This document shows, one piece after another, positions 34,885 to 58,300 of a stretch of 64,000 nucleotides of DNA. Position 1 is the stretch's first letter. The number at the start of each line of letters is the position of its first letter. Location of the stretch: contig NZ_JAIMID010000002.1 of NCBI RefSeq assembly GCF_019966535.1, forward strand, positions 434,001 through 498,000, in the 5' to 3' direction. A model generated the notes under the pieces. That model was not told where the DNA came from. It was given only the letters and a program-made list of their open reading frames with translations, and made no database searches. This stretch comes from Mesobacterium pallidum. Its GTDB lineage: Bacteria; Pseudomonadota; Alphaproteobacteria; Rhodobacterales; Rhodobacteraceae. The position numbers were made by a program, and so were the translations under genes.

Positions 34885-35343
34885 ATGGCAGACCACCGGG
34901 ACGGGTTCGAGCTGGCGGATACGCAGCGCACACTGGCCATCGCGCTCTTGCGCGCGCGCGAGACGGTGATGGAACGGTTCCGCCCCATGCTGGGCAGCGT
35001 CGGCGTGACCGAGCAGCAATGGCGCGTGTTGCGCGTGCTGCAGGAGACGGGCGAGACCGACGCCAGCCAGCTGGCCGCCCACGCCTGCATCCTGCCTCCG
35101 TCGCTGACGCGGATGCTCAAGACGCTCGAGACGCGCGGGTTCCTGACCGTGCGACGCGACCCGGACGACGGGCGGCGCCAGCTGATCTGCCTGACGCCCG
35201 AGGGCACCGATTTCCTGCACCAGGTCGCCCCGCAAAGCGCCGAGATCTACGCCCGCATCGAGGCCGCCATCGGCCCCGACCGGGTGCAGGCGCTGCTGGA
35301 TGAGCTCGACCACCTGGTGCAGGCCCTCGGCCCCCGCGACTAG
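34885..35343 (+). CDS. hpaR: HpaR-type MarR family regulator
   Basis: This 152-residue protein contains 'RTLAIALLRARETVMERFRP' and 'GVTEQQWRVLRVLQETGETD', as in HpaR, the repressor of homoprotocatechuate degradation. The winged helix 'PPSLTRMLKTLETRGFLTVR' and 'DPDDGRRQLICLTPEG' follow. It is the second MarR gene in the aromatic locus. Its target may be the TRAP genes or a distant aromatic pathway, since no hpa enzyme is in the window. Its TAG stop overlaps the stop of the convergent gene by three bases within CTAG. Confidence 0.85.
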   Translation: MADHRDGFELADTQRTLAIALLRARETVMERFRPMLGSVGVTEQQWRVLRVLQETGETDASQLAAHACILPPSLTRMLKTLETRGFLTVRRDPDDGRRQLICLTPEGTDFLHQVAPQSAEIYARIEAAIGPDRVQALLDELDHLVQALGPRD

Positions 35344-36683
35344 CGGTTGCGCGGCGTGCCCCGCACGTTGCGGAAGAAGGTCTTGAGCTTGTCGCTTTTC
35401 GGCGTGTCCTGGAAGGTCTCCTCGTAGGCCTGGTCCAGCAGCGACGGGTAGCCCAGCGTCTTGCGCGCCAGGATCTCGAAGAAACTCGCCACCCGCAGCC
35501 GCCGTTCGATGTCGATGGCCGCACCCGCCTCGCAGGTCGCCTTGCCCTCGGTGCCGAAGGCGGCGGCGAGGCTCTCGAAAGCGCTGGGCGTCAGCACGGC
35601 AAGCGCCCGTGCCTGCCATTTCGACACCCGCGAACAGACCGCCACGTCCTGCATGGCCTTGCCGAAGATGGCATAGCGATCCTCGGTATAGGTCTCGACC
35701 CCGCCGTCGAATTCGCAGCCGGGGATGGCATCGGCCTGCTCGCGGATGATCTCGCGATCGCCGAGGTAGTAGTGGAACTGCTTGCTGCAGAAATCCCGCG
35801 CGGCCGCGTCGTGGCTGTCGTAGATGCGCACCGGCCGGATGTCGGGCAGCTGCGCCAGGTTGGCCGGGGCGGTGGGCTCGGGTGCCTCCTCGGTGGCCTC
35901 GTCCTTGCCAGCCGCGACCCTGGCCGCCGCCGCCGTCTCGGCAACCACCTTGTCGAGGGCCGCTTGCAGTTCCTCGTAGGGGTCGCCTTCCTGCGCGCAG
36001 ACGACGGTTCCGCGCTGGGTGGCCACCAGCACGCTCTTGTAGGCCGGCAATTCCTGCGCTTCGATCAGCGCGGACAGGCCGTAGGATTGCGCGGTGGTCT
36101 GCCCGACCATGCCGATCAGCCCCCGGGTGCCGCAGGCCGATTGCGGCGGCCCGAAATCCCGCGGGGTGATGTAGGAGATCCCGGTCAGGTAGATCGGCGC
36201 CGACACCACGAGGTCGACGCGGCGCTCGTTAGTGATCGTGGCCGGATCGCAGAGGATGTCGAATTCGGCCCCGAGACCGGTAAAGCGGATGTCCCCGCCC
36301 GCGGCCCGCCCGTTCCGTCGCGCCTCGTCGATGTCGAAGACGCCGATGTCGTCGATGCCAAGCTCGGGGTCGGCGGATACCATCTCGGTCAGCACGGCAT
36401 CGCAGATCTTGATCACGTAGCCGGTGTAGCGGTCGCGCCCCAGGGGCCCGAGCGCGGCATGGGTGGCCACGTCTATCATCCGCTCGGACCGGTAGGAGAA
36501 GGGCCGCGAATGACTGCGCACGCCGACGCAAAGCTTCTTGCCCTGCGCGCGGCAGCTGTCCTGCCCGGCAGCGTCGAGCGTGGCCCGCGCCGCATCGCCG
36601 CCCGCCCCGGGCCCGTCGGCCGCGCCCCCCGGCGTCGCAAGGGCCAGGGCCAGGATCAGCGCAAACGGGCCTGGACGCATCAT
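35340..36683 (-). CDS. Secreted binding-protein-like protein at the end of the export operon
   Basis: This 447-residue protein has a signal peptide (1-22, 'RPGPFALILALALATPGGAA') and amino-acid-type solute-binding (SBP_bac_3-like) features: 'LCVGVRSHSRPFSYRSERMI', 'GYVIKICDAVLTEM', 'RRVDLVVSAPIYLTGISYIT' and 'YLGDREIIREQADAIPGCEF'. The Cys-rich N-terminus, an insertion around 240-270 ('ATEEAPEPTAPAN') and a long C-terminal helical part (about 360-447) are unusual for transport proteins. The start overlaps the stop of the membrane-protein gene (ATGATGA). With no ABC permease nearby it may be a sensor or accessory of that membrane protein; this is inferred. Confidence 0.75.
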   Translation of the reverse strand: MMRPGPFALILALALATPGGAADGPGAGGDAARATLDAAGQDSCRAQGKKLCVGVRSHSRPFSYRSERMIDVATHAALGPLGRDRYTGYVIKICDAVLTEMVSADPELGIDDIGVFDIDEARRNGRAAGGDIRFTGLGAEFDILCDPATITNERRVDLVVSAPIYLTGISYITPRDFGPPQSACGTRGLIGMVGQTTAQSYGLSALIEAQELPAYKSVLVATQRGTVVCAQEGDPYEELQAALDKVVAETAAAARVAAGKDEATEEAPEPTAPANLAQLPDIRPVRIYDSHDAAARDFCSKQFHYYLGDREIIREQADAIPGCEFDGGVETYTEDRYAIFGKAMQDVAVCSRVSKWQARALAVLTPSAFESLAAAFGTEGKATCEAGAAIDIERRLRVASFFEILARKTLGYPSLLDQAYEETFQDTPKSDKLKTFFRNVRGTPRNR

Positions 36684-38952
36684 TCTCCCGCGACCTCCTG
36701 CGAGCCGCGGGTCATCCGGCCGCCGGTCTCGCGCATCCATTGCATGCCGCGCTTCAGCCGCCCCGGCGCAGGATCCGCGTCGAACACCTCCTCGGGGGTC
36801 TCGGACCCCTCGAGGAACAGGCCGAAGAAGAACAGGAACCAGATCACGACGGCGCTTTCCGACACGACCTCGCGGGTGAAGCGGTCGAAGAACTCGCCTT
36901 CGACCAGGTAATAGGGCCCCTGGCCAAAGGTCATGCGGATCAGGAAGGCGGCCAGCAAGACGAAGATCGCGATGCAGGTGAAGGCCGCGAACATGGTGCG
37001 CCGGGCGCTCCAGTTGTCGTGCTGGTCCATCATCGCGATGGCACCGAAGCACAGGACGAAGCCGCTCAGCATCATCGACATCAGGTAGGGGCCGTTGCCG
37101 CGCACGAAAAAGATGATCTCGGCCTTGCTGACGGTCAGCCCGCTGGCGATCCAGAGGTTGACGAAATCCACCAGCCCCAGCCCCACGAACAGCAAGGCGA
37201 CGGCAGGATCGAGATGGCAAAGAAGCGGATGAAGGGAAAGCGCTTGAAATCCCACGGCTTCCAGGAATTGGCATCCTTGCGCATTTCCCACATCAGCAGC
37301 GCGGCCGAGACCGCCATGAAGACCGCGACGCCCCATTTCAGCACCGTCCACAGCGCCGATTTCGCGTAGATCCCGAGCCGCGCGTTGATCATCGCCTTCT
37401 TGGCGTCGCGGACGATTCCGGCGCAGATCGTGGCGGCGTCGCCGCCCGCCGGCAGGGCCGCGCAGGTCCGGACGGTCGCGGGCCGAGGCGCCAGCAGGGT
37501 AAAGGCCGAGGGCCGTTCGCTGACGGCGACGAGCCCCCTGGACTGGTCGTAGCCCAGCGCCACGGCGACCCGTTCGCCGGTTCCGGAATCGGTCGCCCAG
37601 CCCGCCCGGCATTCAAGCGGCACCGCGCCCGCGTCCTGCACCCAGAAGGCAGTGCAGATGGTCACCCAGTCCGCCTGTTGCGCGGCGGCCCGCGCGGATT
37701 CCGTGGTCGCGCCGGCCGCGTGCCGGTCGACCCGCGTCTCGATCTGCGGGTCCAGCCCGGCCGTGTTGGCCGAGCTGGGCAGGCGCCAATCGCACAGCAT
37801 GTAGGCGCCGAGGCTCAGGAGGAACCCGCAGAGCATCGCGAGGAAGACCGACATGGCAAAGGAATTGTGCTCGGCGTTGTATTCGCGCTGGATATGGTCC
37901 TGCAGCACGCCGTAGGGGTCGTCGCTGCGGGTCTCCTTGATCGAGCGGTTGTTGCGGATGTAATGCACCGCGAACAGGGCCGAGGCGCTGTTCTTGAGCA
38001 GAAGCGCGCGCTGCTGGAAATCCGACATCGCGCCTTCGAACTCGTCCACGCTGTCGAAATCGCCGGGCTCGCGCAGCCCCTTGAGCCGGGCGCGCAGCTT
38101 GTCCCTCTCGGCCTCGAAGGTCTGGACCAGGGTGTCCACCTTGGCCAGGGTCTGGGCGGGAAAGTACAGCTGGCTGACCGCGCCGCTCACCGAAGGCGCC
38201 AGGAAATCGACCGCGTAAAGCGCGTCGCGGGCCTGGTTCATGTCGATCCGGTCCTCGATCCGGGCATGGATCGCCGGGTCCCAGCCGGCCTCGACCTGGG
38301 TGAACTCGCTCAGCAGCGGGGTCGGCACGTTGCACTTGATCTTGTCGGGCTGCGCGGGGATGCGGGCGGCGGCGCGCCCCTTGCGGCGCTTGCGCAGCTT
38401 CTCGCGTTCGACCCGTGCCTCTTCGGCTTCTTGCAGGAAGGTCTGCCAGCGGATGCCCGACAGGTCGTGGATCACCCGGAAGATGCCATGCGGGATGCCG
38501 GCCAGCCGCTGCGCGAGGCCGCGCAGGGTTTCCTCGACCGGGCGCATGGCGTTGATCGAGAACAGCGAGATCAGGAAGGCCGAGATGAAGATCGGCTTGC
38601 CATAGCCCAGCTCGGACAGGTTGAACGGGTCGGTGACCGGGTTCAGCACCCCGCCCGTCGCGCCCACCTGGCCGCGCGCGAACTCGGCCCTCGTGACCAG
38701 CTCGAGCAGCTCGGCCCAGCTGAGCAGCACCGCGTAGGCGAGGATGTAAAGCAGCGAGTACAGCAGGTATCCCGCGATCCATTCCCGGCCCGAGCACAGA
38801 TCGGACACGCGCGCATCACGCAGGATCGGAAAGACGGCAAAGGGGTCGTTCTGGCCGACCCGCGAAAAGTTGCGGTTGGCTTCGACCAGCAGGGTGCAGG
38901 CGCCGAGGATGACAACGCCAACGTAGATCCACTGGTCCACGTTCCCGTTCAT
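36680..38952 (-). pseudogene. Large polytopic membrane protein, split by a frameshift near 37210
   Basis: Reading from ATG 38952, 580 residues are open until 'KRFPFIRFFAIS'. There the frame runs into an out-of-frame tail that stops at 37135, while the next frame continues without a break as 'DPAVALLFVGLGLVDFVNLW' to the stop at 36680. One missing base around 37205-37225 explains both halves, giving a protein of about 757 residues. It has about nine membrane segments and a central cytoplasmic or periplasmic helical region (about 160-340, with a basic stretch 'REKLRKRRKGRAAARIP'). Family not recognised. It is coupled to the binding-protein-like gene downstream. There is no homopolymer at the site, so this may be a real mutation or an assembly error. 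Confidence 0.75.
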
Positions 38953-39248: not shown

Positions 39249-40040
39249 CTACCCCTGTTCGAACCCCAAAAGGCAGCGCGTGCCGGCGGTAAAGGCGCCG
39301 TCGGCATTGTCGATCCGCACCCGCAACCCGAAGCTGCGCGAGGCGGCGTCGATCACCGGGTCCACGGCCGTGACCTCGCCCGCACGCGACGTGTCGCGGT
39401 CGGCATCCACGACCGTGACGGCGTCGCCCCGCGCGACCTCTCCGTAGGCGGCAGCGGGCAGCAGCGCCTCGGCGTACAGCGTGGAGACGTTGACGATTTC
39501 CAGCATCGGCTCGTCGGCGGCCGCGTATTCGCCCGGGTCCACATGGCGCGCGAGGACGCGGCCCGACACCGGTGCCACGATGGTGCGCAGGGCCAGCGCG
39601 GCCTCGGCGGCCTCGACTTCGATGCGCGAGGCGAACTGCGCATCCTCGGCTTCGGCCAGCTGGGCGCGGGCGACTTCCGTTTCGGCCAGCACTTCGTTCA
39701 GCTGGTTCTGCGAGGCCACGCCGCGGTCCGACAGCGATTGCAGCTGCGCCAGCCGCCGCTCGGCATCGGCCAGCTGCGCCTGCCGGGCGAGGATCGCGGC
39801 CATGCTTTCCGATCGGTGGCGAGCGGCGGCCAGCTGCGCCTCCTGCACCCGGCTCTCGATGCGGCCCAGCACTTGCCCGGCCTCGACCCGGTCGCCGCGG
39901 TCGACGCTCATCTCTTCGAGCAGCCCCGCCACGGGCGGCGCGATCTCGAGCTCGTCGGCAGGGCGCAGGATGCAGCTGATCGCCTCCTGCCCAGCCACCG
40001 GCGATGCAGCCAACAGGGCCAAGAACGCAAACCGTTTCAT
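39249..40040 (-). CDS. HlyD/RND-type periplasmic adaptor protein
   Basis: This 263-residue protein has a signal peptide (1-17). The usual membrane-fusion order is visible: a first lipoyl half ('DELEIAPPVAGLLEEMSVDR'), a coiled-coil hairpin (about 60-145), and a second lipoyl half ('TIVAPVSGRVLARHVDPGEY'), followed by a short beta-barrel. It is shorter than most adaptors and lacks the C-terminal membrane-proximal domain. It overlaps the SecA-like gene by ATGA. It is probably the periplasmic link of the export machinery encoded here; no inner-membrane transporter of the RND or ABC type accompanies it. Confidence 0.88.
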   Translation of the reverse strand: MKRFAFLALLAASPVAGQEAISCILRPADELEIAPPVAGLLEEMSVDRGDRVEAGQVLGRIESRVQEAQLAAARHRSESMAAILARQAQLADAERRLAQLQSLSDRGVASQNQLNEVLAETEVARAQLAEAEDAQFASRIEVEAAEAALALRTIVAPVSGRVLARHVDPGEYAAADEPMLEIVNVSTLYAEALLPAAAYGEVARGDAVTVVDADRDTSRAGEVTAVDPVIDAASRSFGLRVRIDNADGAFTAGTRCLLGFEQG

Positions 40041-41950
40041 TCCAGCCCCCCGGCAAATGCCATCATGTCGTCCAAGCCATCCTCCATCCGGTTCAGATCG
40101 GCGCGCTGGCGGGCATGGACCGCCTCGACCCGCGCTTGTGCGCGGTCGAAATCCCGCACCGTCGGGCGCGCCGGCGGGTCCTGCCCCAGGATCGGATCCT
40201 CGGCCGAGAGCAGGTATTCGTAAAGCCCCGGATCGCCCTGTCGCGCGCAGCGGCCGATCAGCTGGCGGTCGATCCGCCCCGCCTCGTGCCGTTCAGTCAA
40301 CAGGACGGTCAGCCCCCCGGCCGCGCGGGCGGCCTCATCCAGCCGGATGTCCGCCCCCCGCCCCGCCATGTTGGTCGCCACCGTGATCGTGCCCGCGATG
40401 CCCGCGCCGGCGATGATCTCGGCCTCTTCGGCGTCCTGCCGGGCCGAGAGGACCCGGTGCGGCAGGCCATGGGCGGTCAGCGCCGCACTGGCCTCCTCCG
40501 CCGCCTCGACGGTGCGGGTGCCGATCAGCACGGGGCGAGCCTCGGCCCGGTGCTCGGCGGCCAGTTCGGCCACGCGGACCCACTTGGCCGCGAGGTCCGG
40601 CAGGATCTCCACCCGCCCCTGGCGGCGCTGGCTGGGGCGGTGTGTCGGCACGGGCATGACCGTCAGGTCATAGGTCGCCCGCAGCTCGCGCGCGGTTTCG
40701 GCCAGCGTGCCCGACAGGCCCGAGAGCCGCAGGTAACGGCGAAAGAACCGCTGGAAGGTCAACCGGCCCAGCGTCGCGCGTTCCTCTCCCGGGGGCAGCC
40801 CCTCCTTGACCTCGACCATCTGGTGCAGCCCCTCGGACCAAGTGCGGTCGGGCATGACGCGGCCGGTGTTCTCGTCCACGATCTCGACCTTGCCCTCGCG
40901 CAAGATGTAATGCACGTCGCGCGTCAGGATGTGCAGCGCGTAAAGCGCACGTTCCGCCAGCTCGCGCGCGCGACGGCGGCCGGACCAGACGCCGCCCAGG
41001 TCTTCGGAGGTGCCGGCGACCACCGCCTCGCCCTCCTCGGTCAGCGACACGGGCCGGTCGCTGCCGGGGGCGAGCGTGTAGTCGGTGCCTTCGCCCAGCA
41101 GCCGCGCCAGCCAGACCGCCTGCTTCGCCACCGTCGCCATCTCTGCATTGCCCGAGGGGGCCGAGATCACCAGCGGCGTGCGCGCCTCGTCGATCATCAC
41201 GCTGTCGGCCTCGTCCACGATGGCGGACCAGAGCCCGCGCATGATCGGCGCCTCGCCCCGGCCCCATTGCGCGTCCAGCTTCAGCCCCAGGGTCGAGGCA
41301 TCGCCATGGGCGATCCGGTCCTTGAGGTGGTCAAAGGCGATTTCCTTGGACGAGGCATAGACGATGTCGCAGGCGTAGATCTCGCGCCGGTCGGGCGGGG
41401 TCGCGTCGGGGTCGATCCCGCCGCAGGTGAGGCCCAGCCAGTCGAACAGCGCGCGCCCTTCCTCGAGGTCGCGCAGCGCGAGGTAATCGTTGGCGGTGAT
41501 GACGTGGACGGGCCAGCCCTCGGCCGCCTGAAGCGCGGCAGCCATAATCGTCACCAGTGTCTTGCCCTCGCCGGTCGCCATCTCGACGCCGGTGCGGTTC
41601 GACAAGGCGGTGGCGGCGACCAGCTGGACCGGGTGCGGAAAAAGGCCGGTGGCGCGGCGGGTGACCTCGCGCAGGGCGGCGAGGCGTTTGGGCGGATCGC
41701 CCGCGCCGCGACGGGCGGCAGAGGACAGCGCCAGCCATTCCGATTTCAGCGCGGCGTCGTCCAGCCCGGCGCATGGCGCGGCATGCCGCTCGGCCCCGCG
41801 CGCCTGCGTCCAGGCGTCCCGCGCGCGCAGTTTCGTGGCGACTGGGGCCAGGGCACCGCGCGCAAATTGGCCCAGGTCGAACCCGTCACGTTTCGGCGCA
41901 GCGGTCCGGATGTGATCCGGGAACGGCGGCAGGGCGCGTTGCAGGCTCAT
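40037..41950 (-). CDS. Short SecA-like ATPase (accessory export motor)
   Basis: This 637-residue protein, against about 900 in housekeeping SecA, keeps the DEAD motor: Walker A 'MATGEGKTLVT' (124-134), 'VDEADSVMIDEARTPLVIS' (245-263), 'GLHQMVEVKEGL', 'ATNMAGRGADIRL' and the arginine-finger motif 'GRCARQGDPG'. After the motor only about 60 residues remain, so the helical scaffold, two-helix finger, wing domain and zinc tail that push preproteins through SecYEG are largely gone. 'LSGLSGTLAETARELRATYD' replaces the usual TGMTGTA. It lies between an M50/HlyD fusion and a HlyD adaptor, overlapping both, so it probably drives or regulates this special export route. Confidence 0.9.
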   Translation of the reverse strand: MSLQRALPPFPDHIRTAAPKRDGFDLGQFARGALAPVATKLRARDAWTQARGAERHAAPCAGLDDAALKSEWLALSSAARRGAGDPPKRLAALREVTRRATGLFPHPVQLVAATALSNRTGVEMATGEGKTLVTIMAAALQAAEGWPVHVITANDYLALRDLEEGRALFDWLGLTCGGIDPDATPPDRREIYACDIVYASSKEIAFDHLKDRIAHGDASTLGLKLDAQWGRGEAPIMRGLWSAIVDEADSVMIDEARTPLVISAPSGNAEMATVAKQAVWLARLLGEGTDYTLAPGSDRPVSLTEEGEAVVAGTSEDLGGVWSGRRRARELAERALYALHILTRDVHYILREGKVEIVDENTGRVMPDRTWSEGLHQMVEVKEGLPPGEERATLGRLTFQRFFRRYLRLSGLSGTLAETARELRATYDLTVMPVPTHRPSQRRQGRVEILPDLAAKWVRVAELAAEHRAEARPVLIGTRTVEAAEEASAALTAHGLPHRVLSARQDAEEAEIIAGAGIAGTITVATNMAGRGADIRLDEAARAAGGLTVLLTERHEAGRIDRQLIGRCARQGDPGLYEYLLSAEDPILGQDPPARPTVRDFDRAQARVEAVHARQRADLNRMEDGLDDMMAFAGGLE

Positions 41951-44118: not shown

Positions 44119-45935
44119 GGCCAGAGGCTCCAGAGCTTGAGGCGCAGGCTTTCGGCATAGGGTTTGGCCCAGGTCAGCACCCAGAGGTCGCGGCCGGTGA
44201 CGACCTTGGCGACGCCCTCCATCCCGAGGCCGAGGTCGGGGGGCACCTCGCCCGTCAGCTCGGCGTTGACGCGGAAGGTGTTTTCGCCATCCCGCGCCTC
44301 GGTCAGCGGGGTCACCTGCGTGACCTCGAAGGGCAGCGCGCGGTCCGGCATGGCCGAGAGGCGCAGCGTGCCCGCCTGCCCCACGGCGACGCGGTCGATG
44401 GCGGCGTCGGGCACGTGCAGCGTCAGGCTGCGCCGTTCCAGCGGGGCCAGCACCATCAGCTCGGCCCCGCGCGCGACGGGGGCGCCGACCTTGCCCTCGG
44501 TCTGGTCCAGCGTGACCGTGCCGTCGAAGGGCGCGCGCATCCGCCCCGCCTCGAGCTGGGCATTGACCAGCGCGAGCTGGGCGTCGATTTCGGCGATCTC
44601 GGCGGTCAGGACCGACAGGGCGGCGCGGTCGTTCTGGGCCACGGCCGCGTCGCGCTCGATCTCCTTCTGGCGGCGGGTCGCCTCCTGCCGCAGGCGGTCG
44701 AGCTGCAGCTCCTGTTCGTCGAGGCGGGCGAGTTCCTGCCCCTGCACCACCCGGTCGCCCACGCGCACGAGGCGTTCGTCGAGGAAGCCGTCGAAGGGGG
44801 CCGAGATGACGACGCGGCCGTCCGAGGTGATCTCGGCATCCGCCGTCACGCGCGCGGGCGCTGTGACGGTGGCCCCGGCGATCACCAGCCCGATCAGCAC
44901 CAGCGCGGCCAGCTTCCAGCCCAGCGCCTTGGGGCCAAGGACCTGGCCAAGCGCATGGGCGATGCCCTCGAAAGCCCGGGTGATCCAGAAGCGATCGTCG
45001 CGGCGCTTGACCTCAAGCAGGGGCGCCAGCGCGTCGCCGGCGATGTCGAGCGCGGCAAGGTGGCGGGCGGCGGCGTCCGGGTCGGCGAATTCGGCCAGGA
45101 TCACGCCCCAGGGGTCCTGGATGTCGCCGATGGGTAGCGCCGCGACCGAGCCGCTGCCGCTGGCCCGGGCCAGCGCCTCGGACTGGCGGCGCGACAGGGC
45201 GGCGGCATCGTCGCCCGCGGGCCAGGTGACGGCGTCGCGCTGGTCCAGCGCCTCGTCGGCGGCGGCGGTCAGCAGGTCGAGCGCGCGGGAGCGGCCGGCG
45301 GTGTCGGCCACATGGCTCATCGCCTCGATCTTCGCCCCCCGCCGCCTTGCGCGGGCGATGGCGACACGATCGGCGCCGAAGGCCAGCGCCAGCTCGGTCG
45401 CGGCGGTGCGGGCGGCGTCCTTGTAGCCGCGTGTTTCCAGCGCCCGGGCCAGCAGGCGCAGGGCGCGGATCGGGCCGTCATCGCGAGTCGCCTGGGGTGC
45501 CACGGGCAGGTCGCGCAGGGACTGGCGGTGCAGATGCGCCTCGACCCCCGCCGCGCCCCACTGCAGGCGGGTCAGCGCGCGGGTGCCGGCCTCGGGCGTC
45601 TCGGCCGGGATCTCGGCCGCTGCAACAGCGAGGGTGCCGCCCGCGTTGATCGCCATGGCGACGGCCACGCGCCCCGGCCCGGCCTGGCGCAGGGCGGGCT
45701 TGCCATGTTCGGCCACGGCGCCCACGGCGGCGCGCACCGGCTCGGACGGGTCCCAGTCCGACGGCGCACGGCCCTGAGGGCGCAGAACCCCGTCGGGTTC
45801 GCGCACGAGCAGGAGGACCGAGGCGCCCTCTCCCAACTCGCGGGCCTGGCCCGCCGTCCAGCCCATGGCAAAGAGCACATGGGCAGACAGCGGCGCGGCC
45901 GGTTCAGACGTCGAGTTTGCCGAAAAGCTGTTCAT
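44115..45935 (-). CDS. GAF-like domain fused to HlyD-type adaptor
   Basis: This 606-residue protein has a cytoplasmic N-terminal half (1-330) with a GAF-like region ('FGADRVAIARARRRGAKIEA', 'GSVAALPIGDIQDPWGVILA'). One membrane segment ('GWKLAALVLIGLVIAGATVT') is followed by a periplasmic HlyD half: a lipoyl half 'RVVISAPFDGFLDERLVRVG', a coiled coil (about 425-480), a second lipoyl half 'RMRAPFDGTVTLDQTEGKVG', and a beta-barrel. A cytosolic sensor-like domain directly on a membrane-fusion protein is unusual. The start overlaps the DUF3467 gene by 32 bases; the end overlaps the M50 gene. Confidence 0.87.
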   Translation of the reverse strand: MNSFSANSTSEPAAPLSAHVLFAMGWTAGQARELGEGASVLLLVREPDGVLRPQGRAPSDWDPSEPVRAAVGAVAEHGKPALRQAGPGRVAVAMAINAGGTLAVAAAEIPAETPEAGTRALTRLQWGAAGVEAHLHRQSLRDLPVAPQATRDDGPIRALRLLARALETRGYKDAARTAATELALAFGADRVAIARARRRGAKIEAMSHVADTAGRSRALDLLTAAADEALDQRDAVTWPAGDDAAALSRRQSEALARASGSGSVAALPIGDIQDPWGVILAEFADPDAAARHLAALDIAGDALAPLLEVKRRDDRFWITRAFEGIAHALGQVLGPKALGWKLAALVLIGLVIAGATVTAPARVTADAEITSDGRVVISAPFDGFLDERLVRVGDRVVQGQELARLDEQELQLDRLRQEATRRQKEIERDAAVAQNDRAALSVLTAEIAEIDAQLALVNAQLEAGRMRAPFDGTVTLDQTEGKVGAPVARGAELMVLAPLERRSLTLHVPDAAIDRVAVGQAGTLRLSAMPDRALPFEVTQVTPLTEARDGENTFRVNAELTGEVPPDLGLGMEGVAKVVTGRDLWVLTWAKPYAESLRLKLWSLWP

Positions 45936-46260
45936 ATTCCTTGACGCGCCGATCGAGCAGGAGGGACAGGCGCTTGGCCGCGTAGGGCGAGAGCACGATG
46001 CGGTCCGAAAGGCGCACGACCAGCTCTTCCTGGCCGGTGGCGTTCCAGGTCTGGTTGGTGCCGAAGAGCAGCGTCATTTCCTCGCGCGTGGCCAGCACGT
46101 TGACCACGTTGGCAAAGGACGAGCCCATGTCGCTGTCGTCCCAGCGCACGCGCGGGACGGCGGTCCCCAAGGGGGGCATCTGCGGCGCGCTGGTCTCGGC
46201 CTTGGCCTCGGCCGCGTCGTCCTTGGGCGTGGCCTTGGCCTTGTCCTTGGTCTCGGTCAT
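45904..46260 (-). CDS. DUF3467 domain protein
   Basis: This 118-residue cytosolic protein has a charged low-complexity N-terminus (1-35) and a DUF3467-type domain ('VRWDDSDMGSSFANVVNVLA', 'FGTNQTWNATGQEELVVRLS', 'IVLSPYAAKRLSLLLD', 'YEQLFGKLDV'). DUF3467 is of unknown function. It is the first gene after the giant protein, 67 bases on, with AGGA before the ATG, and its 3' end overlaps the GAF/HlyD gene. That position suggests a chaperone or regulator role for the export system, which is a guess. Confidence 0.85.
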   Translation of the reverse strand: MTETKDKAKATPKDDAAEAKAETSAPQMPPLGTAVPRVRWDDSDMGSSFANVVNVLATREEMTLLFGTNQTWNATGQEELVVRLSDRIVLSPYAAKRLSLLLDRRVKEYEQLFGKLDV

Positions 46261-46327
46261 CTCAATATCCTGACATAATAATCGGTTAGGTGTCACGCGT
46301 TCCGGCAGAGCCGAGGCCGAAGCGGCC

Positions 46328-49300
46328 TCAGCTCCAGTCGATCGCCGCCTGAGGGTGCGCCAGCAGCATCTGATCCGCAAGCCCCGTCTCGTCGCCCGCG
46401 CCGGTATCTATCGACAGCACGGTTTCCTCGAGCGCGAAGGTGCCGCCGGCCAGGATGGCCCCCCGCGCGCCGTAGATGCGCAGCGTGACGTCGCCCTCGG
46501 CCAGGTCCAGCGCCTTGGCCAGGAAGGCCATGCGCCGGCCCGTGGGGATGAAGGCCTCGCCCTCTTCCAGCACGCCCGAGGCGGACTCGATCGTGTAGAG
46601 GAAGGACACAGGCTCGGTCGCGGCACGGTCAAGCCGCACCACGAATTCGGCCCGGTCCCAGCCGCCGGGGGCAGTGCCAAAGCCCGACCGCTCGACCGAC
46701 AGCGTGGGCTGCCAGATGCGGATCGGCTCGGACAGCACCAGCGGGCTGGTCGTCGCCTCGCCCGGAGCGCCCCAGTCGACGGTTTGCGACGGGGCTGCGG
46801 GCGCGGCGGTCACGTTGACCGTCACCGACAGCAGCGTCTCGTAGCCGCCCTGGTCGATGGCCGCCACCTCGAAGACCCGCACCCCGGTGCTTGCGCCCGC
46901 AGGCACGGACCAGTCGACCCGGCCCGTCGGAGAGACGGTCAGCAGGCCCGGCCCGGACCGTTTTTCGAACGTCAGCGCGCCGCCGTCCGGGTCCTCGGCC
47001 CGCCAGCCGAGGAACAGGGTGAGCGTCTCGCCTGCCGTCACGTTCTGCGCCGGCGGCGTGTTGGTCCAGACCGGGGCCCGGTTCACCACGTCGATCAGCA
47101 GCGGGGTGCTGGTGGTCGCGCCGTGTTCGTCCGTCACGTTCAGCGTCCAGCTGATCGTCTCGGTCGGCTTGCCGTACCAGGGCGACCAGGTGATTTCCCC
47201 GGTCGCGGCGTCGATGGACGCCTGGCCCGGCGCCCCGTCGAGGCCGTATGTCACGGCGTCGCCCTCGACATCGTTGACATGGGCCGAGGCGTCGAAGGTC
47301 AGCAGGCCGCCCGCGAAGACCTGCGGCGTGGGCAGGCCGTTCACCCGCGGCGCGAGGTTGACGTCGATGGTAAAGGACGTCTCGGTCTCGGTCCCCGCCG
47401 CGTCGATGGCCGCCACGGTGAAGGTCTTGAGGCCCGTGGACACCCAGACCGGCAGGTCCCAGGTGAAGAGGCCCGTCGCGCCGTCCAGCGCGCCCGTGCC
47501 GGGGCCGCCGCGCAGCTCGTAGGCCAGCACGCCGCCCTCGGGGTCACTGGCAAAGGCGGTGAGGTCGATGGTGACCACGTCGCCTTCGTTCGCATCGCGC
47601 GGCGGGATGGCGGCCCATTCGGGCGCGCTGTTGGTCACGTCGATGCGCAGCGTTTCCAGCGTCTCGGCGCCCAGTGCGTCGATGGCGGCGATCACCACCT
47701 CGACCGGGCCGGTCGGCTGGCTCAGCGGCACGGTCCAGTCGAACCGGCCGCCGGCATTGACGCTGGCCCCGGCGGGACCCGAGCGCATCTCGAAGGTCAC
47801 GTCCGTGCCCTCGGGATCGGTCACGCGCCAGCCCAGGAACAGGCGGATGGCATCGCCCGCATCGGCCGCCTGGTTCGGGATCGGATCGGTCCAGACTGGT
47901 GCCGCGTTGGTCACCTCGAGCGTGATGGTCTGCACCGTCTCGAGGCCTGCGGCGTCGATGGCGGCCACGTCGAAGGTGACCGGGCCCGACGGCTGATCCA
48001 GCGGCACATCCCAGCTGAGACGCCCCTTGGCGTTCAGCGTGGCGCCCGCCGGGCCATCGCGCAAGGCAAGACTGATGTTGCCGCCATCCGGGTCCTCGAC
48101 CCGCCACTTGAGGAAGATGCGGAAGTTGTCGCCCGCATCCGCCGTCTGAACGGGCGGCGTGTTGGTCCAGACCGGCGCCCGGTTGATGACCTCGATATCG
48201 AGGTCCGAGCTGGCCTGCACGCCGTGTTCATCCGTCGCGGTCAGTGTCCAGGTGACGATCTCGCTGGGCTTGCCCAGGCGCGGGGTCCAGCTGATGACAC
48301 CCGTCGTGGCGTCGATCGAGGCGCTGCCGGGCGCGCCGACCAGGCCGTAGGTGACCGCGTCCCCCTCGACATCGTTGACGAAGGCCGAGGCGTCGAAGCT
48401 GAGCGCACCGCCCGCAAAGACCTGCGGCACCGGCAGCTCCCATATCTTGGGCGCGAGGTTGATGTCGATGGTAAAGGAGTTCTCGGTCTCGTTCCCGGCC
48501 GCGTCGATGGCCGCCACGGTGAAGGTCTTGATCCCGGTGGACACCCAGACCGGCAGGTCCCAGGTAAAGAGGCCGGTGGCCCCGTCCAGCGCGCCCGTGC
48601 CCGGTCCGCCGCGCAGTTCGTAGGCCAGCACGCCGCCTTCGGGGTCGCTGGCAAAGGCGGTGAGGTCAAGCGTGACCGTCTCGCCTTCGTTCGCGTCCAT
48701 CGGAGGGATCACCAGCCAGTCGGGCGCGGCATTGGTTACCACCACGTCGAAGCTTGCCGTCGTCTCGACCCCGGCGGCATCGATGGCCGCCACGGTAAAG
48801 CTGACCGGCCCGGAGAGCGTGTCGCCCGGGATCGACCAGTCCAGCCGTCCGCCGGCATCGACCGTGGCCCCGGCCGGGCCGCTGCGCAGCTCGAACGTCA
48901 GATCCGTGCCCTCGGGGTCGGTCGCCCGCCAGGCCAGGAACATGCGGAAATCCTCGCCCGCATTGGCCGGCTGGTCGGGAACCGCATCCCAGACCGGCGC
49001 CGCGTTCGCGACATTGACCGTAACCGTCAGCTCGGATGCGTTGCCCGCCGCGTCGATGGCGGCAAGGGTGATGTCGACCGCGCCGTTCGGCATGCTCGCC
49101 GGAACGGCCCAGTCGATCCGGCCGCCTTCGTTCACAGTGACACCCGCCGGGCCGTCGACCAGCGCGAAGGTCAGCGCGCCGCCCTCGGGGTCTTCGGCGC
49201 GGAACGCCGTGAAGAGGCGGAAGTCGCTGCCGGCATCCACCGATTGCACCGGCGGTGCATTGACCCAGACGGGTGCGGCGTTGGTGACGTCAAGCGCGGC

Positions 49301-52300
49301 CGATTGCAGCGTCTCGTTGCCCGCGGCATCGATCGCCGCGATCTCGAGCTGGACAAGCCCGTCCGGCTGGTCCAGCGGCACGGCCCAGGTCAGCTCTCCG
49401 GCCGGGGTCAGGGTGGCACCCGCCGGGCCGCTGCGCAGCTCGAACGTGATGGCGCCGCCCTCGGGGTCCTCGACGCGCCAGCCGAAGGCCATCGAGAAGG
49501 TCGTGCCCGCCGTCGCCTGCCGCACCGGCGGCGTGTTGGTCCAGACCGGTGCCGCGTTGGTCACATCGATGCGCACGATCCGGGTGTTGGCATTGCCAAC
49601 GTTGTCCATGGCCTCGACCGTGAACTCGTAGCGGTCGGTGGCGGCATCCAGCGGCGGCGTCCAGGTGAACTGGCCGGTGACCGGGTCGATGGCCGCGCCC
49701 GCCGGGCCGCTGATCAGCGTGTAGCCCAGCGCGCCGCCCTCGGGGTCGAAGACATAGGCCGCGACATCCACGACCGCCTCTTGTCCGGCGTCGGTGGCGA
49801 CCGGGGTGATGTAGGTCCAGCTCGGGTTGCGGTTGGTCACGTCGATGCGCAGGGTCCGCTCGTGGTCGAGCCCCTCGTCATCCACGACCGCCACGTCGAA
49901 CACGACGCGGTCGGTCGGCTGGTCCACGGGCGCGGTCCAGCTGAAGAGGCCCGTCACCGGATCCAGCGTCGCGCCGGCCGGACCGCCGCGCAGCTCATAG
50001 GTCAGCGGATCGCCGTTGGCATCGCTCGAGATCGCGGCAAGGTCGATCTGGAAGGTCTCGCCCGCGAACATGTCCTGCACCGGGATGAAGGACATGACCG
50101 GCGCGATGTTCCCCTCGGTCACGTTCAGCGTCACGATGGCCGTGGAGGAGGTGAGCGCATTGCCGGTCGAGCCCGCCGGATCGCCGGTGTCGGTCACGTT
50201 GAATTCGAAGGTCACCTGGCCCGAGAAGGTCGCAGGGGCGAGGTATTCGAACACCAGGTCGCTGATGCGGGTCAGCGTGCCGGTGGCCGGCGGGGTCGTG
50301 ATCTCGGCCCGCAGGTTGGCGGCCGGGGTCTCGAGGTCGGTGCCCGAGAGCACCAGCGTGGTGGTCACGCCGCCGGTCACCTCGACCGTCTGGGCGGTCG
50401 CGGTGGGGGCGTCGTTCACCGGGATCACGCTGATCGACACGGTGGCCGAGGCGGTACCCAGCTTGCCGTCGTCGACCACGAAGCCGAAGGTATCTCCTTG
50501 CGTCGAATCCGCGTCGGGGCGGTAGGTGACCGTGCCGGCGACGGGGTCGAAATTCTCGAGCGTGCCGTGCTGCGGCGCGCTGGTGATCGTGTAGACCAGG
50601 TCGTCCCCGTCCACGTCGCTGGCGGTCAGGGCGATCAGGACGCTGCCGTCCTCTGTCACGTTTGTGACCACCGGGGTGGCCACCGGCGCGGTGTTCGACG
50701 ACCGGTCGACCTCGAAGATATGGACGTAATCGCCGCCCTCGGTGCCGTTGTCGTCGCCGTCCAGCCGGTTGCCGGCGGTGTCGTAGATCGCCAGCGTGCC
50801 CGACAGGGTCAGGCGCCACATACCATCGGCCAGCGGGGCGTCGAAGCCCAGCACCAGGTCGGTTTCGGGGAAGGAATAGGACGGAGTCACCGCCACGACC
50901 ACGTCGTCGCCGGTGTCGAAGATGCCGTCCACCCCGGCGCCGCGCAGCTCGTAGTTGGCAGGGCTCCGGGCCGAGACCAGTTCCAGCGCCTCGCTCGTCT
51001 CGATCGAGATCGAGGTGAAGGCAAGGTCGGTCGTGCCGCCGGGCGCCGGCAGCGCGGGGATCGACACCACCGTCGGCGGGGTCACGTCGCCCGAGTCGCC
51101 CTGGAATTCCAGCGCGCCGATGTCGAAGTAGTTCAGCCCCGGCGCGCGCGCCCAGTCGCGGGTCGCGCCATCGGTCGGGATCGCCCCGTTCAGGTTCGAA
51201 TAGACGAAGGTCTCGCCATTGCCGGCCGACAGACCGACGCGGGCGCGGCTGTCATTGTTGCCGGCGCCGTATTCGAATTCGACCGTTCCGTCGTCATGCA
51301 GGATCACGGCAAAGTTAAGCTGCTCGGTGGTCGGCAACCCTTCGGTCGTGCCCGCCCAGCGGAACTTGACCCAGCTGTCATCGACGGCCTGGCTGCGGAA
51401 CACCCCGTCGGTGCCGCTCGTGTAGGTCCGCATCTCGGTCCAGAAGGGCGCGATGATCGGCCGGGACAGGAAGTTTTCCTCGGTGTTGGGGTAGTTCGGG
51501 CTTTGCGTGCCGAATTGCAGGTAGCCGTCGCTGACCACGCGGACCGAGGTGTATTCCTGGCCCTGGTAGTAGAAGCTGAACGGCAGCGCCTCGTCGCGGT
51601 AGCTGTTGGTCGTGCGCAGGCCGATCTCGGCCCCGTCATAGGCAAAGCTGCCGGTGCCGGGTGTTTCGATGAAAAGCTCGAACCCGTCGCCGGTGTTGGC
51701 GGTGGTCGGGTCGTCCGACCGCACGCGGCCGAAGAAATCGTGCAGCAACGCGCCGTAGGCCGTGCCGCTGTCGATCGCCAGGCTTCCCGCGTCGAGGTTG
51801 AAGTTGTCGTCGGCCCCGCCGCCCAGCGCGCTGTCGAGCCCGCCCAGCACGTTGTCGGCCCCGTCGATGTCGAGGAAGACCGGATCGCCCTCGACGCTGC
51901 CCAGCCCCTCGCCCGAGGCGGCGCGCCAGGCCGCGAGGTCGGTCTGCACGATGGCGCCCCAGGTGCCCACATCGGCCACGCCGGTGCCGCGGAAGAACAG
52001 GTTGTAATCCGAATTGACCGTGCCGCCGGTGCCGGTGACGCGGATCACGCTGCCCTGGTCCGATTGCAGGATGTTGTTGCGCAGGAACACGTTGGGCGTC
52101 GAGGCCGTGATGTCCAGCGCCGTGCCCACCGACTGGTAGATCGTGTTGCCGATGATGCGGGTGTAGCCGTTGCCCTGGTGCAGCACGCCGACGTTGGTGT
52201 TGTCGTAGATGACGTTCTGGCGCAGCGTGTGGGCGGTGTAGGTGCCGCTGTCCATCTGCACGCCGGTCGCGTTGGAATAGACCTTGTTACGCAGGAAGGT

Positions 52301-55300
52301 CGCGCTGCCCGAGCTCGATCCCGACAGGCCCAGCGTGTTGCCGAAGACGCGGTTGCCCTCGACCAGCGCATAGCTCGACCGGATGCCTGTCGCGCCGCCG
52401 TAGACGATGTTGTTCACCGCGGTGCCGTTATAGACCTCGATGTTGACGTCGCTGTTGCCGAAGACGGTGCTGTCCTCGATGCGCGAATTGGCTTCGCTGA
52501 GGTAGACGCCGTCGCCGCTGTTGTCGCGGATGATCGCGTCGCGAACCGTCACCTCGCCGCGGACGCTGACCGCCGCCGAAGTGCTGGTGCTGCCATAGGC
52601 CTCGAAGCCCTCGTAGACCGACCCCGGCCCCGCCGAATCGTTGTCGTCGACATAGAGCGCATAGTCGTTGTCGTAGAAGACGCCGCCGGTCATCTGCACC
52701 CGCTCGGCCGTGATGTAGGCGGCGTAGCTGGTCGAGTTGAGGCCGGTCTGGCTGATGTCGAGATCGATGAACGTGAGGTCCGTGTTGCCGGTCAGCGCCC
52801 GGAGGCCCTCGCCCTGGGTGCCGACGATGGTCACCGCGTCGAGCGTGATGAATTCGCTGCCCGCGCCCGTGTCCATGTGCACGCCGCGATAGCCGCCGGT
52901 CAGCGTCAGGTCCGAGATGGTGACGTGGTCGGCGCCGGTGAACTCGATGCCGTCCGCGCCGTTTGCGGTGCTGTTGCGGGTCAGCGTGGTCAGGCCCGCG
53001 CCCGCGCCGATGATCTCGACCGGGTTGCCCTCGGCGCCGCTGTCCTCGATCCCGAGGAAGATGTCCTGGGCGATGACGTAATTGCCGCTGTCGATCCAGA
53101 TGCGGTCGCCCGCCTCGAGGTCGTAGGCGCGCACCAGCGCGCCAAGGTCGGCCATCGGCGCATCGGCCGACTTGCCCGAATTGGCGTTGTCGCCCACCGC
53201 GGTGGTATAGACATCGCCGGTCAAGTCGTCGTCGTTGATGTAGAAATCCCGCCCGCCGTTGACGATGCGGAAGCCGTTGTCGGACACGTCCGTCAGCCCG
53301 CCGCCAACCTGGGTGACGCGCAGCAGCGCGGTCTCGCCCACCGTTTCCGGCGAGGCGGTCCAGTCGACATAGCCAAAGCCCGCGCGGTTGACCGTCACGG
53401 CCCCGGCGATCGGCGTCCAGCTGGCGCCGTTGTTGGTCGACAGCTCGAGGTCGAACTGCGGCGAGGCGGCCCCGCCCGGGTTCGCCCGGTAGAGCTCGAT
53501 CGCGCCCAGCTGCGGAGAGCCGAAATTGCCGTCGTCGCGGATCAGCTCGACCGTCATCACGCCGTCCACGGCGGTCACGCCCGACAGATCGATGGCGGTG
53601 CCGAAATAGGTCTGCCCCGCCAGGGTGCGGAACGATTGGTTCGTCGCAACCTCGACCCCGTTCACCAGCACCGAGAAGCTGTCCACCGTGTTCGACGCGG
53701 ACATGCCGTGCAGCCGCAGCCTGTAGGTGCCATCCGCGACCGGCAGGTCGTAGCGCAGCGTGTTGGAGTTGATCTGCCGCGTCAGGGCAAAGACGCCATC
53801 CGGGATCTCGGCATAGGCGCCGCCGGTCATGTAGGTATAGGTGTTGTACTCGGTCCCGCCCGAGACATAGGTCGCGGGCGAGCGGAACTCGACCCCGTCC
53901 TCGGCCAGCACGGTGCCCGAGGTGGCGCGCATGGCCAGCACAAGCTCTTGCGCCATCAGGTCGCCGGCGTGGAAGCCAAGGCGGTAGGTCTCGCCCTCCT
54001 CGAGCTTTTCGCCGCCGTTGGGCGACAGCACCTGCAGCACCGCGCCGCCCGATTCCGTCGCCTCGCCCGTGTTGCCATAGGCGCCGATATTGGCCCGGCC
54101 GCCGTTCTGGCCCGGCTCGCGCGCGAAGAGCGATCCCGGATCGCCCGCATCCACCCCCGCGGCCGCCGCGAGGAGGTGGAAGTCGAGCCCGGCGGCATCG
54201 ACGAACTGCGCCGCCGCCTCGAAGGAATGTTCGTCGCGGCCGGTCTGGTAATGCACCGTCTCGGCATCGGCATAGCCGACCCCGGCCCAGGTCAGGGCCA
54301 CGGCGCTGCCGCTGAGGTCGTACTGGTTGTAATCCGACCGGTAGCCGAACTGCGCGGCATTCCCGACCTGGACTGCCGTGCCCGCGGGCATCTGCACCAG
54401 GTTGTTGCGCACATGTGCATTGGTGGCGCCACCGGTCAGGTGGATGCCGATCTCGCCCAGGCCGCCCATCACGATCGTGTTGTTCTCGATCATGTGGCCG
54501 TTGCCTTCGCCGACGTAGATCCCGGTGCGGATCGCATCGCCGAAGATGACGTTGTTCTGAACGAAGACGGCATTGCTGTAATAGGGCGTCAGGCGGATGC
54601 CGAACTCGGACCCCGAGATGCGGTTGCGCTCGATCACGCCGTAGGGCTGCGTGCCGAAGCCGATGCCGGCATAGGTGTTGTCGACTGCGACGTTGTCGCG
54701 GATGCGCGCGTTGTAGCTGGCCTGGATGCCGGTGTTGTTGCCGCTGACAAAGCTGTTCTCGAGCACGCCGAAGGACGACCGGATGCCGACGCCGGTGTTG
54801 TCCATCGAGGTGATGTTGCTGCCGTAGACCGAGTTGAGGTCGATCGCGATGGTCGAGGTCGATCCCTGCGTGCCGGTGACGGTCACGTTGCGCACCTCGC
54901 CCGAATAGGAGGTGAGCGCGGTAAAGCGGCTGTCGGCCACGGTTAGCCCGTCGACCAGGGCGCTGGCCGCCTCGGACCCGATGTAAAGCCCGTAGCCGCT
55001 GGCATCGATGCTGCCGCCCAGCACCTGGACACGGTCGCCGCGCAGGTTGACGGCATAGCCGCTGGCCTCGGACCCGTTGGTCACCGCCATGTCGGTGACG
55101 ATGCCGTCATGGCTGCTGTTGTCGTACAGGATCGCCTCGTAGTCGAAATCGGTCGCGGTGATGCGCGTCAGCTCGACGAAATCCGAGTTGAGCACCCGGA
55201 TGCCGCGGTCGCCGTTGGTGATCGAAAGATCGCTCATGCGGATGTAATCGGCACCCGAGATGACGAAGACATCCGCGTCGGACACGCGGCTGTCACGGTC

Positions 55301-58300
55301 GAACAGGGCCACAGCACCCGGCGTGGTCGGGCCGATGATGTCGAGGTATTGCGACGCGTCGCCCGCATCCTCGGCCCCGATGACGATGTCGCGGGTCATC
55401 AGGTAGGTGCCGGCGTCGATGAAGATCCGGTCGCCCGGCTCGAGGTCGTAGGCGTCAAGCAGGTTGGCCAGCGACGCCATGGGCGCATCTGCCGATTTTC
55501 CGGTATTGGCGTCGTTGCCCACCGCGGTGGTGTACTGGTCGCCCACCAGACTGCCGTCGTTGATAAAGAAGTCCCGTCCGTTGTTGCCGATCTGGATCGG
55601 GCCGGTCGCCTCGCCCAGGGCGCCGCCCTGCTCGGCCACCACGCGCAGGCGTGTCGCGGTATCGGCAAAGCCCGCGTCGGGCGTCCAGTCGAACTGGGCC
55701 ATGCCGTAGCGGTCAAGCGCGATGCCCGAGCCCACGGTGGTCCAGGTCGTGCCGCCATCGGACGAGGCCTGCAGCGCCACGGTCGGCGCGGCCACGCCGC
55801 CCGCCACCGGGCGCATGATCTCGAGACCCGCGTAATAGACCGTCGAGATCGAGGTCTCGCTGAGGGTCAGCGTCAGCCCCTCGCCGCCCGCCACGGTGAC
55901 GGTCACGTCGAAGGCCGCCGCGCGGTTGCTGCCGCCGGTCGCGCCCGCCGGGGTCGCGTCGGTCAGAACCTCGACCCCGTTGGCAAAGACCGAGAAGGTG
56001 TCGTTCACCGGGTTGGACTGGCTGGAATAGGCGTGCAGGCGGATCGTGTAGGTGCCGTCGGCCAGCTCGGGGAAGTAGAGGTTGATGTTGTCCCCGTACA
56101 AGTAGGTGCCGTAGATCGCGTCCGGCCCCGCGTCGGGGTTGGTCTGGTCGATGCCCGACGAGGTCCGTGTGCCGGTGCTGGCCCCGTTCCACGGGGTCTC
56201 GACCGCGCCGTTCCAGACGCCCTTGCCGGGCTCGTAGACAGGGACGGCCTGGGAAATGTAGCCCAGGTTGATGAGCTGAACCGGCGCCGCGTCGCCCAGG
56301 CCGTCGGTGCGGATCTGGACGGTGGTGGGTTCGCCCACCTCGATCTTGTTGAACTGGTTCGGGCCGTAGACCTGCATGACCTGCGCGGCCGAGCCCGCCG
56401 CCTGGTCGGTGCCGCCCCAGGCGCCGATATTGGCGCGCCCGCCCGAGGACGCGCCTTCGCCGATCCAGGGCCGGAACAGCGAGGCACCGTCAAGCGCCGG
56501 GCTGCCCGCGCCGATGGTGAAATCGTCATCGGCCGAGCGGTCGCCCGCGATCTCTTCGAAGCGGACGGCATCGGCCAGCAGCGGCCGGCCGTCCAGCGCG
56601 GTCGCGGTCACGGTCAGCGTGTCGGTCGAGATGGTCGCGTAACCGACCAGGCGCCACGGCACCGTTTCGCCGTCGATGATGGCACCGGGATCGTAGCGCT
56701 GGTCCTTGTGCGACGTGATCACGTCAAGCCCGTCGTCGGTCACGGTGTAGCGCGCGGTGAAGCTGGCGCTCGAGACCTCGTCCCAGGTCGCCCAGATGCG
56801 GTAGGTCGCGCCGGCGGTCAGGCCGGTCGCCGTCCAGGTCGCGCTGCCGCCCGGATCCACCGTCACCTGCGAGCCGCCGCGGCCCCGGGCCGCGTCGAGC
56901 GTCGTGGTGCCGGTCGTGGCAAAGCCTGCGTCGGTGTTGTCGACCACCTGGGACGACAGGATCGTCTCGCCGTCGAAGCCCAGGATGTCGTCCGCCCCGT
57001 CGGGGTCGGCAAAGCCCGGATCGCCCACGCGCGAGCTGGCGTCGCGGCCGGTGGCATAGAACCAGGCCGTCAGGTCTTCGGTATCAAGCCCGCCCCAGTT
57101 CGCCAGCCCGGCCCCGGTGGTCAGGTGGAAGAGGTTGTAATCGCTCTGGAACCCGGCCTGCGAGCCTTCGTCCACCACGAAGGCGGTGGCATCCGCCCCG
57201 TCCATCGCGAAGATGTTCGAATTGATGTCGACCGCGCCCACGGTCGAGGTCTGGATCGCCACGCCGTCCAGCAGGAAGGTGTTGTTGGCGATGGTCAGGT
57301 AGTTGTCGCCGTTGATCTGGATCCCCACCGGCGCGTCGCCGTAGATCAGGTTGTTGTAGACCCGCGCGCCGCCCGAAGAGCTGAGGTTCAGCGTCACGTT
57401 CCGCGTCGTGTTGTCGAAGATCCGGCTGTCCGCCAGTATGGTGTTCTGCCAGTTGCCGCCCAGTTCGACCCCGGTGCCGTTGTTGTAGATCGTGGCGCCC
57501 ATGACATGGGCGCCGTAGACTGCTTCGATTCCCATCAGGTTGTGATGGAAGGTGCCGCCGATCGCGCGCGAGCCGGTATAGAGGTAGACCCCCTCGTTCG
57601 AGTAGTGGTTGTAGACGTCCACGTCGGTGACGACCGAGTAATTGGACGCGTAGATCCCGCGCGTGGAATTCTCGTAGACGATCGAGTCGGTGATCGTGCC
57701 GGAATCCATGTAGATGCCGCTCTGGTTGGTGAAGTAGCGGCCGCCCTCGATGCTGTTGTTGCCGTTTTCGACCTGCACGCCGTAGGAGGTGTTGCGCTCG
57801 AAGATGCCGCCGCGGACGATGGTGTTGTCGCCGCGCACCCGGATGCCGTCGGACGCCAGCATGGCATGGATGTCCTCGAACAGGTGGTCGTGGCTGCCGT
57901 TGTCGGCCTCGATCCCGGAATAAAGCGGATCGATGATGTCGAGATCGCGCAGGATGACGTCCTGCGAGGTGCCGCTGAGGTAGATCGAGTGGTAGCCCGA
58001 CCGGACTTCGAGGTTCTCGACCTGGATGAAATCGCCGGTGATCTCGAAGCCGAAGGCGCCGCCCGAGGTCGAGCCCCGGTCGAACGAGGCAATGGCCCCG
58101 GCCATGTCGGGCCCGCGGATGATCAGCCGTTCGCCCGCGCCGGTGCCGCTGCCGGAATCGCTGTCGTCGATGACGATGTTTGCGGTCAGCGCATAGTCGC
58201 CGGTGTCGACATAGATGATGTCGCCCGCGCCCAGGTCATAGGTCTCAAGCACGAGGCGCACGGAATCCATCGGCGTCGCGGCCGAGAGGCCATCGTTGGC

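Follow-up and report, generated by a model that had tools for sequence, protein, structure and literature searches.

A short SecA-like ATPase encoded with M50-HlyD genes in Mesobacterium pallidum as a probable subunit of an exporter for giant LEPR-XLL proteins

The window, that is, the whole stretch of 64,000 nucleotides of Mesobacterium pallidum DNA that was analysed, encodes a short SecA-like protein which keeps the ATPase motor of SecA and ends soon after it. We propose, with a probability of about 0.6, that this protein belongs to an exporter that spans the envelope, is dedicated to giant LEPR-XLL proteins and uses it in place of the ABC ATPase. The proposal is based on the domain content, a conserved operon, the pairing of this operon with LEPR-XLL genes and the lack of any ABC-transporter gene that recurs in the loci. 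Kamneva, Poudel and Ward (2015) first described a secondary SecA_DEAD family together with a locus related to the type I secretion system (T1SS); the ABC transporter was absent, SecA was proposed as the ATPase and the M50 protein as the pore, and the biological role was termed completely unknown (PMC4452313). Because family and locus were thus published in 2015, the short SecA of the window is a member of a described family. It carries SecA_DEAD and lacks SecA_SW, and is encoded with M50-HlyD, GAF-HlyD and HlyD proteins, separately from a housekeeping SecA. The loci studied here resemble the published one in these genes, sometimes with an OEP gene, and in the phyla concerned. Methylobacterium extorquens AM1 is one of the strains with the locus (PMC4452313). 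The 2015 paper names no substrate, giant protein, LEPR motif or motif-less members (PMC4452313), and the LEPR-XLL link, the motif-less members, the DUF3467 and SapC neighbours and the SecA-less relatives are added here.

The original prediction of a SecA-like reading frame ending soon after the motor motifs was confirmed by Pfam, phmmer and an AlphaFold2 model. The frame starts with ATG. Pfam matched SecA_DEAD at residues 45-424, SecA_PP_bind at 276-380 and P-loop_SecA at 443-539, there was no Pfam match for the SecA wing/scaffold domain in the 637 residues, and the phmmer alignment stopped at residue 548 of the B. subtilis SecA chain. As had been claimed, the motor motifs are kept: Walker A (GEGKT), DEAD, motif III, motif V and motif VI (QLIGRCARQGDPG) are all intact. 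The estimate of about 60 residues after the last motor motif agrees with the 62 counted. With the SecA1 equivalog model TIGR00963 the protein scored 459 bits, below the cut-off of 800, so it does not belong to SecA1 by this model; the best stretch of the match ended at model position 474 of 787. None of the SecA2 models was matched above its curated cut-off (TIGR04397, 403 bits against 1085; TIGR04221, 392 against 725; TIGR03714, 368 against 930; NF012136, 309 against 1100). The genome also encodes a separate normal SecA of 910 aa, and the short protein was therefore rejected as the housekeeping SecA. A second short SecA paralogue is present in the same genome.

The AlphaFold2 model (pLDDT 89, pTM 0.88) ends in a single helix, residues 598-631, which aligns to the start of the scaffold helix, and the single-chain prediction contains no intact two-helix finger or scaffold. 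The model superposed on residues ~14-614 of B. subtilis SecA in 6itc (Z 40.4, 579 residues), with low rmsd both to this structure (3.5 Å) and to 5eul (3.2 Å), two forms in which SecA is engaged with SecY and substrate. As predicted, the window protein has no wing, no two-helix finger and no zinc tail; of the scaffold, predicted to be missing or minimal, the first part of the helix persists. The description of the protein as lacking the translocation domains does not hold, because the preprotein cross-linking domain (PPXD) and the clamp loop are retained. The original prediction also overlooked the conserved family, its description in 2015 and the likely cargo encoded by the adjoining giant LEPR-XLL gene.

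The nearest analogue in extent is an artificial fragment, E. coli SecA-N68 (5k9t), cut at residue 610, which has constitutive ATPase activity, still binds SecYEG and signal peptides, and is unable to catalyse translocation (PMC5603524). The earlier expectation of a poor SecYEG motor by itself fits this fragment. The short SecA shares with SecA1 and SecA-N68 three domains, a similar end point and intact ATPase motifs. Unlike SecA-N68 it occurs naturally and continues past NBD2 as a helix stub, the first Arg of the LRGR motif is replaced in most of the family members shown in the alignment, and it belongs to another operon. Like SecA2, it is a second SecA beside the housekeeping one and is shortened in its C-terminal region, but the solved SecA2 structures retain the scaffold and two-helix finger, with a wing that may be shortened (PMC7503281), whereas the short SecA keeps just a stub of this region.

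A scan of GTDB genomes and relatives yielded about 50 homologues that share this layout and a short length of 600-700 aa. A median of 81 residues (range 59-95) follows motif VI in 51 short homologues, versus 321 in 25 full-length SecAs, and the C-terminal end is conserved among 38 aligned members. This conserved length disfavours truncation by sequencing error or decay of the gene. The Walker A and motif VI columns were nearly invariant in the 38 sequences, a set gathered partly by the Walker A pattern and so biased toward intact motifs; the ATPase motifs were also intact in most systems found through M50-HlyD. SecA_SW was matched in just 3 of the 38, not including the window protein. Of the three large domains, the PPXD showed the lowest conservation between short and full-length SecAs (27% versus 44-48% in the NBDs), compared with 41% versus 58-61% among the full-length SecAs, and the first Arg of LRGR was replaced in most short SecAs shown in the alignment. 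In the tree, a supported branch (SH-aLRT 98) has all full-length SecAs, including SecA2-like ones, to one side; this topology would fit the short form having arisen once, without proving it. Short homologues also occur in plasmid records of Rhizobium, Mesorhizobium, Ensifer and Rhodobacteraceae (H1-H12), some of them annotated as prepilin peptidase, apparently a mis-annotation.

The features are collected in Table 1. The connection of the short SecA with M50-HlyD and GAF-HlyD neighbours, part of the original prediction, is real and conserved across phyla. The window genes follow the order GAF-HlyD, M50-HlyD, SecA and HlyD, each overlapping the next by 4 nt. In the M50 protein, H215, E216 and H219 (HExxH) and D317 (second motif) are invariant in 29 homologues, and because of this it is likely an active protease; the C-terminal part of its model is a MacA/MexA-type adaptor by Foldseek. 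The GAF domain of the 606-aa protein lies just under the Pfam cut-off (22.2 versus 22.4 bits). DUF3467 proteins are a recurrent small partner of the operon, and the true start of the one in the window is probably the ATG near 46239. A SecB-like chaperone was considered for it and rejected (profile-profile alignment probability 0.1, with no convincing PDB match).

Table 1. Features of the short SecA locus in the window and motif-less SecA-like proteins of related loci
Feature	Position	Strand	Basis
HlyD/RND-type periplasmic adaptor, 263 aa, signal-peptide-like N-terminus	39249-40040	minus	profile matches
Short SecA, NBD1-PPXD-NBD2 and scaffold-helix stub, 637 aa	40037-41950	minus	ORF, Pfam, phmmer, AlphaFold2
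PqqD-like domain, polytopic M50 protease and HlyD periplasmic adaptor, 723 aa	41947-44118	minus	Pfam, alignment, model, Foldseek
GAF-like and HlyD membrane-fusion protein, 606 aa	44115-45935	minus	Pfam, alignment of 22 homologues
DUF3467 protein (listed ORF)	45904-46380	minus	Pfam, alignment
Giant LEPR-XLL gene, 3' part	46328-64000	minus	beta-helix and Ig/cadherin repeats in window
Pseudo-SecA (motif-less)	L168:8682-10484	plus	same operon position
Pseudo-SecA (motif-less)	L170:3946-5811	minus	same operon position
Pseudo-SecA (motif-less)	L201:6972	minus	same operon position
Pseudo-SecA (motif-less)	L202:9742	plus	same operon position
Pseudo-SecA (motif-less)	L212:3418	plus	same operon position; cut by contig end

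Among 45 loci with both a short SecA and M50-HlyD, GAF-HlyD was present in 42, a further HlyD in 33, DUF3467 in 12, SapC in 9 and OEP/TolC in 9; these counts are lower bounds because the stretches read differ in length. In the window's genome the OEP gene lies elsewhere. The operon is distributed over alpha-, beta-, gamma- and deltaproteobacteria, Planctomycetota and Verrucomicrobiota. An ABC-transporter signature was found by motif scan at 1 of 72 system loci only, and no ABC-transporter gene was recurrent in the loci, to which the scan was confined. It seems nearly certain that the operon is real and of exporter nature. SapC-family genes (PF07277) recur by the operon or the giant gene (L036, L039, L045, L047, L157, L160, L161, L204 and L205). 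Downstream in the window, the ORFs at 35340-38952 encode 605, 310 and 644 aa, and the product of 37135-38952 looks membrane-bound; as parts of the system these proteins were rejected, with no homologues in other loci and no Pfam match.

The giant gene adjoins the DUF3467 gene on the same strand and runs beyond the window to the equivalent of position 75058, as a single open frame of 9,602 codons (9,576 aa from the first likely ATG). RTX repeats and an N-terminal LEPR-XLL domain lie in the part outside. The latter matched NF012209, a model of a 24-position tag, with 24.8 bits over a cut-off of 17 (G000:C22:508831-508887), so the product is a LEPR-XLL protein. By a crude test that is no substitute for a signal-peptide predictor, the best 12-residue mean of hydrophobicity, LEPR N-termini mostly are without a strongly hydrophobic core: the mean was 1.0-1.8 for 12 of the 13 N-termini examined and 2.05 for the remaining one; the giant of the window gave 1.11, and the HlyD adaptor, which has a signal peptide, 2.17. 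Still larger single open frames starting near a LEPR-XLL domain were seen in other genomes, with 19,427 codons (G256:C115:54913-113194) and 15,434 codons (G209:C1:450126-496428).

Operon and LEPR-XLL genes are paired. Scores of the M50-HlyD profile across 259 Pseudomonadota genomes fell into two bands, ~540-1000 bits and ~300-415 bits, the latter for full-length matches. High-band M50-HlyD was present in 32 genomes, LEPR-XLL in 35 and both in 28 (Fisher P=8e-27, a value that, as in the two other samples below, ignores shared ancestry), which means LEPR in 28 of 32 high-band genomes versus 7 of the 227 others. Each of these 7 has the lower-band kind, so that all 35 LEPR genomes carry M50-HlyD of one band or the other. 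In a sample of 196 genomes of the order, M50-HlyD was found in 9, LEPR in 9 and both in 8 (P=2e-12). Among cross-phylum genomes reached via GTDB loci, 23 of 28 with a short SecA carried LEPR-XLL, versus 0 of 22 with full-length SecA matches only (P=1e-9; this control group is not lineage-matched). Physical adjacency does not depend on correction for ancestry: 30 of 48 LEPR genes are on the same contig as an M50-HlyD gene, 25 of them within 10 kb, and in one genome (G209) all four systems present are near a LEPR gene of their own. So we consider it quite probable that the giant LEPR-XLL protein is the cargo of the operon's exporter.

In classical type I secretion the cargo carries its signal at the C-terminus. 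The present system resembles HlyB/HlyD/TolC in its HlyD adaptors, a TolC-type channel and a very large cargo of RTX or Ig-like type. It differs in that a SecA-like ATPase and a polytopic M50 protein are encoded with HlyD and no ABC transporter is in the locus, and the tag of the proposed cargo is N-terminal. We speculate that the LEPR-XLL tag would be read by the PqqD-like domain of M50-HlyD, the PPXD of SecA, or both. The SecA clamp, made of PPXD, NBD2 and the scaffold-helix stub, would hold the chain, and ATP would drive its feeding into a conduit that combines the polytopic M50 protein with the HlyD adaptors and an outer-membrane channel of the TolC type; the tag, or a site near it, may be cut by the M50 protease. 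The short SecA would here stand in for the ABC ATPase of type I secretion. Remodelling of a substrate by the short SecA, as originally suggested, is possible.

Five operons encode, in the place of the short SecA, a SecA-like protein without Walker A, DEAD and later motifs (Table 1); very long branches make their placement in the tree uncertain. At one locus with high-band M50-HlyD (L169) the other operon genes and a LEPR giant are present without SecA, and five loci with low-band M50-HlyD near giant LEPR genes (L150-L154, of which L153 has the variant tag LEPRLMYDAA) have HlyD proteins, mostly OEP, and no SecA, possibly a SecA-less version of the system. ATP hydrolysis by the SecA subunit therefore cannot be a universal need, and given these relatives the role as motor of the exporter is one that we infer, with slightly better than even odds. 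A type-I-like machine free of ABC proteins, in which a finger-less SecA and an adaptor-bearing membrane protease export LEPR-XLL-tagged giants and the SecA of some lineages is an ATP-independent clamp, we would judge at even odds.

The same relatives, the five motif-less proteins still kept in the operon and the SecA-less sister systems, would suit a short SecA that is a receptor or clamp and no motor, binding the tag and passing the giant on, with energy from the proton-motive force, from the housekeeping SecA, which is present in the same genome, or from calcium-driven folding outside the cell of RTX repeats, which the proposed cargo has. We regard this as less likely, with perhaps one chance in four, since motifs intact in the window protein and most members, including the biased set of 38 and most systems found through M50-HlyD, argue for retained ATP use in most. 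Functionless decay of a paralogue, to which the loss of motifs in some members might point, is extremely improbable: some 50 family members of equal length occur across phyla with catalytic residues invariant, the gene overlaps its neighbours by 4 nt, and full-length SecAs stay on one side of the branch supported at 98.

The short SecA might also be an accessory, SecA2-like motor on SecYEG, for which a partner supplies finger and scaffold before the chain enters the HlyD/TolC conduit. The PPXD is kept, the model fits well to SecY-engaged SecA, and SecA-N68 binds SecYEG and signal peptides (PMC5603524). However, the translocating complex grips the chain in a clamp that PPXD and scaffold domain form, and the finger lies nearby (PMC6599042). 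Parts that contact SecY are absent here, namely the two-helix finger and the wing together with most of the scaffold (PMC6599042); the PPXD, which also contacts SecY, is the least conserved large domain, and SecA-N68 cannot translocate. We think this improbable, and prefer the short SecA as a subunit of the dedicated exporter.

No exporter named for LEPR-XLL (NF012209) proteins was found in the literature searched. These proteins rank with the largest bacterial ORFs, at up to 19,427 codons, and a likely LEPR-XLL cargo is new for a family whose role and substrate were left open in 2015. The pairing of LEPR-XLL with the short SecA offers a testable function for both. If it is true, a SecA core would be able to work in the absence of its finger and perhaps of SecYEG, a result relevant to the mechanism by which SecA moves chains, and the motif-less members would let the roles of clamp and motor be told apart.
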